64,000 nucleotides of DNA. Origin: Periplaneta americana. Taxonomy: Eukaryota > Arthropoda > Insecta > Blattodea > Blattidae. The notes below the pieces were generated by a model. It ran no database searches and was not told the origin of the DNA. It saw only the letters and a list, made by a program, of their open reading frames with translations. The stretch's first letter is position 1. Each line of letters starts with the position of its first letter. The stretch lies in the NCBI RefSeq assembly GCF_040183065.1, contig NC_091131.1:10820800-10884799 (forward strand), in the 5' to 3' direction. Shown here one piece after another: positions 33,348-62,094 of the stretch. A program made the position numbers and the translations under genes.

Positions 33348-34953
33348 CAGTGTCTATCATCCTTATTCGTACATATCTAATTTAAACTAATAAGACAACA
33401 TTATGTACAAAATAATTATACTCATATACTAATAGTAGTTTACCATGCTTTAAAACCATTTCTTAGAACGTTAATTTACAACCAGTTTTTATTTTAAGCT
33501 CTAATTAACAAAAATATTAATAAATACATTACTTTGAAAGTAAAACTGTATGTCATTTATATTCGTACACTTGAGTAATTTTGACTTATTCGGGGGTGCC
33601 GTGCCTTAATGGTAACAACGAGTGTGCATTACCGCGTGCTCTAGGGTTTGTTTTGCTTCAGCAGTCAGTTCTGTTCAAAATGGGCAAGTCGAAGGAACTC
33701 AGTGCCGAGCTGAAGGAGACGATAGTTAGACTGGCTCTTGAAGGTTATTCTTTACGGAAAATAGGCAATATAGTAAACAAAAGTCATTCCACGAAACAAT
33801 ACGTGGTTAATAAATTCAAATACCGTGGATTTACTGCAAATCGGAAAAGAAAACCAAAAGAAAAAATATTAAATGAGAGGGAAAAAAAGGTTTAAAATAA
33901 GACAGATAATATCAAATCCACGAAACCACGTTCTCTCATGACAAAAACCACAAGGAAGACTGTTAGTGTAACAACGGTGCGGCGTGTCCTATATAAATAT
34001 GGATTTCATGGTAGAAGGATAAGAAAAAGGCCCTTTGTAAGTAGAAAAAAATCGAGCTTTAAGAATTAAATTTCCTAAAGTTCATGTAAATTAGGAGCAA
34101 GAATTTTGGGACAGTGATGAGACCAAGATTAATCTTTTCGGATCCGATGGTGCCCATAGAGTGTGGAAAAAGAAGAATGAGGCCGATAAAGTAGATAACA
34201 ATCTTCCCACTGTGAAACATGGAGGTGGCGTCATAATGATTTGGTGCTATAAGTCCTCGAAAGGCGTGAGTAACATCGACTTAATTGATGCAATTATGGA
34301 CAATGTAATCTATAACAACATCCTGAAAAATAATGTCAAGGAAAGTGCAATAAAATGGATTTGCCGTCTGTTTACATTTTCCATCAAGACAACGACAGCA
34401 AACATACGGCCGAAATGAACAAACACTGGTTGATATGGAACGTCCCGAAACAACTCCATACTCCTCCTCAATCATCCGATCTGAATCCCATCAAGCATTT
34501 GTGGTCCAAACTTAAGGAAAATATACATAAAAATACAATTTCGTCCAAAGAACACCTCAAAACTGTTGTGCTGGAAGAATGGCGAAATTTCACTCGGCAG
34601 CAATGCAAAACGTTCGTAAATTCCATGCAGAGAAGGCGTCAGGCAGTGATCAAAGCCAGAGGATATGCAACCAGGTATTAGAACGTAATTGTTTATGTTA
34701 TTTATGTATAGTTATGTAATTTTGTTACTAACTGTACGAATATAAATGACAAGTAGACAAATTATATATTTTGTTAAATTTCGTTTATTTACGTGTTTAT
34801 GGTATATATGGAATTTACTTTTTGTTTTATTTGTATTCATAATGCTACTGAACAGAATTTTCAAAGAGAAATATAATACTTTCATTTCATGTGTCTTTTA
34901 TCACCAAAGTTGTTGCATATTTTCACCTGTACGAATAAGACTGATAGGCACTG
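33348..34953 (+). mobile_element. Tc1-like element, 1606 bp, inactivated
   Basis: TA flanks both sides (33346-33347, 34954-34955). The outer ends read CAGTGTCTATC and CAGTGCCTATC and share cttattcgtaca. A second copy of a related motif (gtcatttatattcgtaca) lies about 200 bp inside each end (33551 and, inverted, 34732), giving an IR/DR arrangement as in Sleeping Beauty-type Tc1 elements. The transposase frame between them is broken. Confidence 0.93.
33680..34681 (+). pseudogene. Tc1-like transposase, frameshifted, catalytic Glu changed
   Basis: The start MGKSKELSAELKETIVRLAL lies at 33680; an HTH region GYSLRKIGNIVNKSHST follows. Stops and shifts occur at about 33893, 34070 and 34330. The catalytic core is readable: SDETKINLFGSDG (first Asp at 34116), PTVKHGGGVIMIW, HQDNDSKHTA (second Asp at 34388) and DLNPIKHLW. 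Counting from the second Asp, the DD34E glutamate position falls on the Lys of PIKHLW (codon aag, 34493-34495); the family has PIEHLW. The end is ARGYATRY at 34681. Several independent lesions make it non-functional. Confidence 0.92.
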
Positions 34954-48285: not shown

Positions 48286-48288
48286 TGT

Positions 48289-48917
48289 TTATGCTCGACC
48301 ATGCCGAAATGTAGTAATTATACACCTGGTAGCAGGCCTTTAATGCATGTCATTAAAGTACACCTACTCATTAAAGGTCAGGTCTTTCAGCCAATGACGA
48401 CTCAGGTTACAACTGTTCAGCTAATGCTACCGTTATAAAACCCCAAGTATCGATTATTCTCGGATATGCAATAGAAAGAGAATTAGCGAAAAGTCACGGA
48501 GGCTGGAAATCCAATACTGTCGCAGAAGGTTATGTTCTGTTACTATAATAATTAGCGTTAATTGTAAATAATATTAAAATAAATTCAATTTTTCATCTCG
48601 TTTTTCATTGTCTAATTTAATTTCAATGTTATCTCTGTAGGTTCTTATGGCCTTGCAAGGTCAGTGTGGACATCTGTTCCTCGGAAAAAATCAATACTTT
48701 CGCGTCTGCGCACATCTCACAACATACGGGACATTGCTAAAAATTAATAATATCAAGTTAGAAATATGGTCGACCATAAAAAGTCGTATGAAACTCGCCT
48801 ATAATGGTAATTAAGAAGCTCGTATGAAAATTATGAAACTCGCTTGCGCTCGTTTCATAAATATCCGTACTCACTTCTTAATTACCTTCATTATAGGCTC
48901 GTTGCATAATGTACTAT
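48289..48917 (+). repeat. Dispersed repeat X, copy 1
   Basis: About 630 bp matching 60619-61237 in reverse: atgctcgaccatgccgaaat at one end, ggatatgcaatagaaag, tactataataattagcg, ttcgcgtctgcgcacatctc, and a terminal hairpin region (cctataatggtaattaag / cttaattacc..attatagg) at 48800-48895. No coding capacity. The class is unknown. Confidence 0.85.
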
Positions 48918-58200: not shown

Positions 58201-58491
58201 TAACAAAATAGTCTTGTTACCGTGTTTCTTGGAAATTAAAACGAAACCTACACTTTGTTCGTCATATTTCACCAATTTACACACCTCTGATTAGAACGAT
58301 ATGGTACCGAATTTAACCTCTGCTGGTTGTACGTTACACACAGACAAGTAGAATATTTGTGAAGGAAGAAATGAAGGAGTGGTGAATATAGTGCCCGTGC
58401 ATGCCTTAGGAGAAAAAAATGTGCTTCGAAATGCTTTTAGAACTGAAGTTCTTTAGGTTTTCCATGCGATTTGCGTCATTTGTCGAAACTA
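58201..58491. other. Downstream flank of the split reading frame
   Basis: No feature; on the minus strand this would be the 3' flank of the frame ending at 58492. I see no clear AATAAA on that strand here. Confidence 0.4.
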
Positions 58492-59784
58492 TTAAGTTTG
58501 GTTAGTGTAAAAGTTTGGCCGTTTCTTTAAACACTTTCGCACCTGGTTCTTCAATTTTTTTTTTCTGAAGTTTCTGTGTGTTTTTTTTTCTGACAAAGTT
58601 TCATACTTTTTCTTCTTTCTGTCTTCACTCGCCATGTAGGTTGTCCAGCACAAAAATAGGCTCTTCAGATTCTCTGCAGGTTCTAACTTCCCAAGTAATA
58701 TATCCACTTTTGCAGAAAGTTGTGCGGTAGCATATTGGGGTAGGGCATAGTTGCGCCCCACGGTCAGATAAAATGCAGCAGATAAAAAAGGGTCTCTATT
58801 TTGTGGGCATAGTTGCGCCTCGTTCCCATCAGGTAGAGAAAAGGGGATGGCATAGTTGATCCCCGATGAAATAGGTAGAGAAAAAGATACTACGGAAACT
58901 CGAGCCTCGTAATCAACCAACCTTATTGATTTCTTATTCGATTTAATATTCATTATCGATACCGTTAAAATGAACACCATGAAGTTGGCAATATTTTATT
59001 AACTGTTTTTCTACTGTTTATGCAGTGATTATCGATAGCCTACCGTTAAAATGAACACCATGAAGTTGGCAGTATTTTATTATTGAAATGAGTGAGCCGT
59101 TGGAATATGGGGGCTTAGCAGTCTTTGACATTTTATTAATGATTTTCACACCGTCTGTGGCGTATAGTGAGGTTAATTTAAAATGAATGTTAAGTTTAGT
59201 GAAAAGGGTAAAGAGTTAATAATTCACAATGGTTCTGAGTTTCAATTTTCGAAACCCTGTACCGTAGGGTTAAGATATCGATCTACAAACAAAAAATGCA
59301 CTTGATTTATTGTTTGTGATCGATAAAAAAAAGTGTTATTTTAAATAGTAAAATTGATCATATACTAGGCCTACCTGATTTCAATGCAGCTATCACTATA
59401 ATATTTGTAAGTCATTTGTTTATATTATGACAATCACTTTCGTTTGTACTATGTACATCGGGACGCAACTATGCCATGTCCATTCTGCTACCTGATTTCT
59501 TCGGGGCGCAACTATGCCATGTCCCTTCTGCTACCTGGTTTCTTCGGGGCGCAATTATGCCATGCCTAGGCCTCCCAATTGACCGCGGGGCGTAACTATG
59601 CCATACCGGCATATTGACATCCTTTAGGAAGTAATAGTTGATTTAGTTGTCGTGCAGTGTTCTTCGTGAAAAGTGCTTCGAACAAAATAACTTCCTTGTC
59701 ATTGCTCGTCAGTATCTTTATGCGTCTGTGAACAGATACAATCACAATTTTTAATACTCCGCAAGGTGAAAGAAGTATTCGTAG
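58492..59784 (-). pseudogene. Unrecognised lysine-rich reading frame, split by a DNA element
   Basis: On the minus strand an open frame starts after a stop at 59785-59787: SVHRRIKILTSNDKEVILFE, ALFTKNTARQLNQLLLPKGC, QYA. It is then broken by an 871-bp element with an 8-bp duplication. Past the element it continues in the same frame: TAQLSAKVDILLGKLEPAEN, LKSLFLCWTTYMASEDRKKK, ending KKRPNFYTNQT and a stop at 58492. The rejoined part is about 140 residues, mostly helical in look with a basic, lysine-rich tail of about 45 residues, perhaps nuclear or nucleolar. A plausible splice acceptor (tctgttcacag, AG at 59726-59727) could make it a terminal exon. I do not recognise the family; it could also be a relic of another transposon. 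Confidence 0.55.
58738..59608. mobile_element. 871-bp DNA element with subterminal repeat arrays
   Basis: An 8-bp duplication gcatattg (58730-58737, 59609-59616) flanks it. The ends are roughly inverted (GGGTAGGGCATAGTTGCGCC against CGGTATGGCATAGTTACGCC). The core ggcatagttgcgcccc occurs three times near the left end (58744, 58807, 58849) and four times, inverted, near the right end (59464, 59506, 59549, 59590). A 45-bp stretch (taccgttaaaatgaacacca) is duplicated at 58960 and 59040. There is no transposase, and the superfamily is uncertain. Confidence 0.85.
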
Positions 59785-60560: not shown

Positions 60561-60618
60561 AACAAAAGCAAGGTACACACTAGAAGACGTTTTGCCAAAA
60601 TTTTCTCGTGGATCTTTA

Positions 60619-61237
60619 ATAGTACATTATGGAACGAGCCTATAATGGTAGTAATTAAGACGCTAGTATGTTTATGAAACTAGCACAAGCGAGTTTCATA
60701 ATTTTCATACGAGCGTCTTAATTACTACCATTATAGTCAAGTTTCATACGACTTTTTATGCTCGACCATATTTCTAACTTGAAATTACTCATGAGTAGTC
60801 ATGTTATTCTTATCTGACTGAGGAGTGGAACTGACCTTGTGCAATACCTCTTAAATTGTGAGATGTGCGCAGACGCGAAAATATTGATTTTTTCCGAGAA
60901 ACAAATGTCGACATTGACCTTGATATAATCTAGAGAGTAAAATAAACATTAATCTTGATATAACCTTGAAATTGAATTAGACATTGAAAAACGAGATGAC
61001 AAATTGAATTTATTTGAATATTATTTACAATTAACGCTAATTATTATAGTAACAGAACTAGTTGTCTTTCGATTGCATATCCGAGAATAATCGATACTTG
61101 CGCTTTCATATTGCTACAATGGTATTTCCTGATTGGTGGAACACCTGAACTTTAATGAATAGGCGTACTTTAATGAGGTCCATTAAAGGGCTCCTGCCAG
61201 GTGTATTATTACTACATTTCGGCATGGTCGAGCATAA
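60619..61237 (-). repeat. Dispersed repeat X, copy 2
   Basis: Reverse complement of 48289-48917. It contains acgagcctataatggtagta, gagatgtgcgcagacgcgaa, cgctaattattatagtaaca and catttcggcatggtcgagca. The hairpin region is at 60635-60740. Confidence 0.85.
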
Positions 61238-62094
61238 AATAATAAAAAAAAACAGGGTCATATAATGACATCTCCGTTTCGATTCTTGGAACCGAATATG
61301 CTGCCTTTTTAATATTTTTCATTTTCTTTTGCCATTTTGCAATTTATTTATACCAGCAGTTGGAAAATGAATATCGTAGAAGGTTGAGTATAAGCCTTTG
61401 AATAATTCTTGAAGACTACGAGGGTGAGAACCCAGTCTCTGTGCCCTGTCGCTTTATTGACAGAACCTACTCGGCTCCATTTCTGCGTGGGGGTGAAGTT
61501 AAACTACTCCTCCGGGTAGAACGAAGTTGCTACTAACTCGTGTAAGAACGTGCAGCCGTCCCTGGACTCTGTCCAGATGGCTCGAGCGTGTTCAAGTGCA
61601 GGGATGGATCCCCGTCGTCCTGACACATCCCACGCGATGCAGCACGTACGCAGGCTGTCACTATTGATTCTGCTGGGATGTTACATGCAGCAGTCACCTT
61701 TTATCTCTACGCATTTAATGTTACAGATGTTTTTGCTACCGATGAGAAGGTGGGAACATGTATGGATCAGTTACAAAGTAGACAACACGGAATAAACAGT
61801 TGACAACGGACAAAATTTTCATACCCTGTGGTGCAGGATTTCTTAAAGCACTCACGTTTCACTTGTCATTCTATCATTGCGTTTTGTCCATTTTATCATC
61901 ATTTAATCGTCTTCTCATGTCATCTGTAGTTTGAATGAAGCATTATTTGATAAATAACCATTGTGTGCAAGTATACAGCGTGTTTCAGGAAGTTTTACCG
62001 CCATTTTTCTGAAGTGGCTTGGAACATATTTTCCTAATAAAGTTTTTTTTTCAGATCTCACATAATTCAGGAACATGTTGGTGTGAAGAGAGCT
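61238..62094. other. No gene recognised
   Basis: A GC-richer patch at 61430-61690 with a frame 61550-61795 lacking domains. tacagcgtgtttcaggaag at 61976 resembles a mariner-type end but has no partner. Confidence 0.4.

Follow-up and report, generated by a model that had tools for sequence, protein, structure and literature searches.

The closest described systems for the element reported here are the miniature inverted-repeat elements (MITEs) of animals, which are non-autonomous. The 871-bp element is likewise shorter than 1 kb and has inverted ends, a target duplication, no transposase frame and many similar copies; it differs from MITEs in that its terminal motif recurs in 43-bp subterminal repeats, which beside some copies make up arrays reaching about 1.3 kb. 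Target duplications of 8 bp are made by the transposon superfamilies hAT, P, Merlin and some Mutator, which the element resembles in making an 8-bp duplication and from which it differs in that no transposase was found in it. In large insect genomes, fairly young transposons are commonly nested in older dispersed repeats, and the nested insertion described below is therefore of little importance in itself. The sequence that received the element belongs to an old family which can be compared with the unclassified Periplaneta-specific repeats, given as 15% of the genome in PMC12774602. Like these repeats, the family is dispersed, old and unrecognised by protein families, and it differs in that only six copies of it were found, a number to be read as a lower bound.

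The window is the whole stretch of 64,000 nucleotides of Periplaneta americana DNA that was analysed (C15:10820800-10884799), and the genome that was searched comprises 3,231,669,367 bases in 91 contigs. We consider it probable that a MITE-like copy inserted at this locus into an old dispersed repeat copy that was no longer coding, and that the open frame reading across the insertion results mostly from the sequence being A-rich and poor in stops. The features concerned are the following, in window coordinates:

58220-58400: distinct high-copy repeat, about 180 bp long, bounding the old repeat on the low side (from the best 40 of 573 candidates)
58415-58737, minus strand: old repeat copy, downstream part, holding the lysine-rich half of the frame and running past the stop at 58492; aligned to C10 (from about 58652 down), C17, C11 and C9
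58492-59784, minus strand: rejoined open frame, 137 codons after removal of the element and of one duplication; broken in related copies
58730-58737: target site duplication GCATATTG, low-coordinate copy, 8 bp, exact
58738-59608: non-autonomous DNA transposon copy (MITE-like), 871 bp, from the ends as read and from genome copies with matching ends
58738-58766, plus strand: terminal inverted repeat, arm 1, 29 nt
59458-59564: 43-bp subterminal tandem repeats within the element, which repeat the terminal motif GGCATAGTTGCGCC
59580-59608, minus strand: terminal inverted repeat, arm 2, 29 nt
59609-59616: target site duplication GCATATTG, high-coordinate copy, 8 bp, exact
59617-59751, minus strand: old repeat copy, upstream part, holding the first part of the frame (frame start 59784); aligned to C11 and, from 59617 to about 59646, also to C17

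A first-pass annotation of this DNA had described an 871-bp insertion with an 8-bp duplication, and this description was borne out, the same 8 bp being found without mismatch on both sides of the element. The two 29-nt inverted ends are imperfect (25 of 29 positions agree). Inside the element, the only frame of at least 100 aa in the ORF list of the window is one that enters from the flank, and it has no match in Pfam. With its inverted ends, a duplication of constant length, many copies and no transposase frame of its own, the element meets the usual description of a MITE. To our knowledge, its ends, CGGTATGGCATAG and GGGTAGGGCATAG, match no family end, and the terminal-base and duplication pattern typical of hAT was not visible by eye in these ends and in the eight duplications described below. 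In the literature, no paper was found with the letters of the terminal motif, and the word cockroach was absent among the matches listed for transposons with an 8-bp duplication and an inverted repeat.

When the segment 58492-59784 was compared with the genome, 2273 candidates were obtained, of which the best 40 were scored; all 40 match the 871-bp element (the window's own copy and 39 others). Among these best 40, the 39 other copies show 88-95% identity with matching ends, and 37 of them span at least positions 181-1040 of the query, in which the element occupies 177-1047. Direct duplications of 8 bp were seen by eye at all eight element loci that were fetched (five exact, three with one mismatch); the eight were the best-matching loci, and that of the window is one of them. 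The window copy is 2.4% away from the majority of these eight, a value that is biased downwards since they are the closest copies, and by this measure it appears to be fairly young. As a separate observation, some element copies adjoin arrays, as long as about 1.3 kb, of the 43-bp subterminal repeats, as if a transposon end seeded satellite-like growth; the family could serve for studying the expansion of the subterminal repeats of DNA transposons into arrays. The places noted for such arrays are:

C9:153659616-153660683
C15:162183815-162184782
C14:14972972-14974321
C5:175257744-175258499
C1:32021765-32022130

At another locus (C8:66508698-66509833, L005), one element copy appears, by eye, to be nested in another member of the family, internal element sequence being duplicated over 8 bp with one mismatch.

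The sequence on both sides of the element belongs to a dispersed family with at least six copies on six contigs and with different truncations, a lower bound, as the search reaches fairly similar copies only. The five copies other than that of the window lie on C8, C9, C10, C11 and C17 and are about 59-76% alike. By tblastn, the 137 residues of the rejoined frame found in the genome, besides themselves, C10:160033456 (58% over 55 aa, one stop, E 2e-5), C17:27282137 (41%, two stops, E 0.06) and two further places at E of about 2.4, and a composite of three translations found C11:157417232 (E 0.03, four stops). Comparison at the DNA level confirms C10 (72%) and C17 (68%) as relatives of the flank, the similarity to C17 running beyond the stop of the frame. 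The alignment to the C11 DNA extends from 59751 across the joint as far as about 58417; it scores 102.5, where the best of 40 shuffles scored 26.5, and has a gap of about 20 nt starting a few bases past the joint. The alignment to the C17 DNA also crosses the joint and scores 29.5, the best of 300 shuffles of the 9.9-kb C17 stretch having reached 20.5. Since C11 and C17 both align across the insertion point and lack the element, they are related sites without it. No similarity was found in C17 upstream of about 59646 (128 of 300 shuffles were as good) or in C10 at the joint (192 of 300); a lenient alignment had reached further upstream in both copies, and the stricter, shuffle-tested limits were adopted.

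Both candidates returned by a DNA search with 58405-58737 were matches (the window itself and C10), and all six candidates returned with the C10 copy as query were matches as well, namely C10 itself, C11, the window, C8, C9 and a short stretch of C6 (query 400-481) that we left out of the copy count. The C8 and C9 copies were confirmed by alignment, C8 matching C10 at 73% and entirely beyond the stop. Also left out of the count was L014, whose tblastn E value is 2.4 genome-wide and 1e-5 in an unfiltered search of that single locus, and whose DNA score of 22.0 compares with a maximum of 21.5 in 40 shuffles. Two other tblastn candidates, L013 (E 2.4) and L039 (E 0.75), had no DNA support and were dropped. 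The DNA queries had to be short, longer pieces of C11 and C10 and the first query from the low-side flank having been dominated by unrelated high-copy repeats. The repeat at 58220-58400 is of this kind: all 40 scored candidates (the best 40 of 573) match, these being the repeat itself and 39 others at 82-86%. The repeats that bound the family in the window, in C10 and in C11 are three unrelated ones and therefore mark no common end; among the six copies, neither the family's own ends nor its mechanism were found.

The rejoined frame runs on the minus strand from 59784 to 59617 and then from 58737 to the stop at 58492, its lysine-rich part being the downstream half. It had been reported to continue in the same phase across the element; it is indeed open once the element is removed, with 137 codons and not 140, and the join lies, as had been stated, in the codons for CQYATAQL (reading ...KGCQYATAQL...). 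The downstream half is open even in the filled site, without any excision, because the frame continues into the element to 58995 (167 aa). When the window is taken as an empty site, it contains 16 frames of 137 codons or more, which together occupy 12.8% of it (12.1% if the rejoined frame is left out); by eye, several of these 16 are transposon or low-complexity sequence. When the 1 kb around the joint was shuffled by dinucleotides, a frame this long crossed the joint in 7 of 3000 cases, and shuffles of the segment of the rejoined frame gave a stop-free minus-strand frame in 0 of 3000. The rejoined frame is therefore longer than expected by local chance, yet it is not rare in the empty-site window. 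Three-base periodicity is unremarkable in the joined frame (42% of random window stretches are as high), and the corresponding proportions are 3.65% for the upstream 168 nt alone and 63% for the downstream part alone. We would urge caution: in A-rich sequence, a frame that stays open across the site of an excised transposon says little for the presence of a gene, and uninterrupted copies in the same genome provide a quick test of such frames.

The protein had not been recognised from its letters, and the searches agree with this: Pfam contains no family matching the 137-aa frame up to E 10, and none matching its halves. Four matches were obtained in PDB with the rejoined frame, the best at E 0.2, and are taken as chance. 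The peptide pattern of the frame fits 26 stretches in virus contigs and 145 stretches in prokaryote contigs, and tblastn confirmed none of them in either collection. With pieces of the C11 copy, all Pfam matches stayed under the cut-offs; the best of them, TRSP (19.9 bits against a cut-off of 25, E 0.0007), was also taken as chance. At gathering thresholds, Rfam gave two tRNA matches, both elsewhere in the window.

The alternative that survives best, which we nevertheless regard as unlikely, is that the members of the dispersed family are decayed copies of the last exon and 3' untranslated part of a real gene; the rejoined frame would then be the one that originally coded, lost long ago in most copies, and the transposon would have struck a copy already dead or dying. 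Conservation of the frame, as compared among the paralogues of this one genome, offers this reading several points. The length of the lysine-rich half is a multiple of three in the window (153 nt), in C10 (141 nt) and in C17 (150 nt), and is 151 nt in C11; of five copies, four retain a tandem stop, and the frame stays open over 137 codons in the window copy. In five of six pairs, the 150 nt preceding the stop are slightly more alike than the sequence following it (identity 0.60-0.75 against 0.59-0.69 over the six pairs, and about 0.45 when shuffled). In a simple neutral simulation of protein similarity, the rejoined frame was the best conserved of the three frames, the observed value being reached in 59, 33 and 30 of 1000 runs for three pairs. 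The sum over six pairs was reached in 0 of 600 runs for the rejoined frame, but frame 2 beats the same null as well (1 of 600), a null that spreads mismatches evenly and takes the pairs as independent.

Against a coding origin, the frame is broken in all four other copies that cover the lysine-rich half: C10 and C17 have a stop within it, C11 has a 1-nt gap, and C9 has non-triplet gaps together with stops and has lost the stop motif. Moreover, the longest open run through this half lies in another phase in each of them (69 codons against 37 in C10, 52 against 44 in C17, 85 in C11 and 53 in C9). No excess of mismatches at third codon positions was found in the window's own comparisons, the three positions giving 28/102, 26/102 and 29/101 against C17 and 22/90, 20/89 and 24/89 against C10, and counts for the lysine-rich half alone being flat (10/14/11, 17/16/21 and 18/17/17). 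Among the six pairs, four are about flat, C17 against C11 has a third-position excess (13/14/23) and C10 against C11 shows the opposite (13/18/8). A search of the genome by tblastn found no parent gene of the rejoined frame. Homology also continues past the stop at only slightly lower identity (54-58% after the stop in an earlier, gappier alignment). The first-pass annotation had proposed a real terminal exon hit by an insertion; the insertion stands, with its exact duplication and with sites lacking the element on C17 and C11, whereas the exon is not supported, in view of at least six degenerate dispersed copies, the absence of a protein family match and a reading frame that none of the four covering paralogues has conserved.

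We give little credence to the proposal that the flank family goes back to an unrecognised gene of Blattodea, that copies of its lysine-rich last exon were scattered through the genome, and that the window copy kept its frame longest until the transposon struck. It is more improbable still that the window copy was a functioning last exon, recently broken by the transposon. The frame is open and in phase on both sides of the element, the element copy is fairly young by its 2.4% distance from the majority of eight close loci, and the minus strand has at 59726-59727 an AG (CT in the plus strand) that could act as an acceptor; against this, the stretch round that AG aligns poorly between copies of the old repeat, no upstream exon was seen in the ORF list of the 64-kb window, and the missing parent gene, the lack of third-position excess, the four broken frames, the result for frame 2 and the longer runs in other phases all weigh here too. 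The least credible reading, pure chance in unique sequence without relatives, fits the 12.8% of the empty-site window covered by frames of this length and is refuted by the paralogues, the flank having clear relatives elsewhere in the genome.

The insertion of a MITE-like copy into an old, no longer coding repeat would have proceeded as follows. A repeat or pseudogene family may have spread long ago and then decayed, and one copy of it would have become bounded here by the unrelated high-copy repeat at 58220-58400. The MITE, whether before or after this, entered the copy with an 8-bp target duplication, most likely by cut-and-paste and presumably moved by a transposase supplied in trans. We infer that the old flank family derives from a transposon and does not represent a set of pseudogenes. 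Counting against this explanation as a whole, six copies found are few for a transposon family, and there remain the three-base signal of the upstream 168 nt and a frame longer than in local shuffles. As the other copies found do not preserve the frame, it is most likely ordinary genome debris and not a freshly broken gene.

Some observations concern the neighbourhoods of these copies and the rest of the window. The region C17:27267400-27307000 (L020, L016, L018 and L019) contains a row of five exons on the minus strand, each encoding seven C2H2 zinc fingers; a link between the flank family and this array was considered and rejected, the C17 copy lying on the opposite strand to the array and no second copy occurring in that 39.6 kb. 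At L015:8313-8795, a frame resembles by eye the membrane-spanning part of a plexin, about 3 kb from the C10 copy and on the other strand. In the window, pieces of a Tc1-like transposase are found at 33575-34681, with HTH_38 and DDE_3 above their cut-offs in separate frames and a helix-turn-helix (HTH) of the Sleeping Beauty type just under its cut-off. Finally, a repeat of about 620 bp occurs at 60617-61242 and at 48288-48917, the two being 71% alike within the window and 75% alike with L015.
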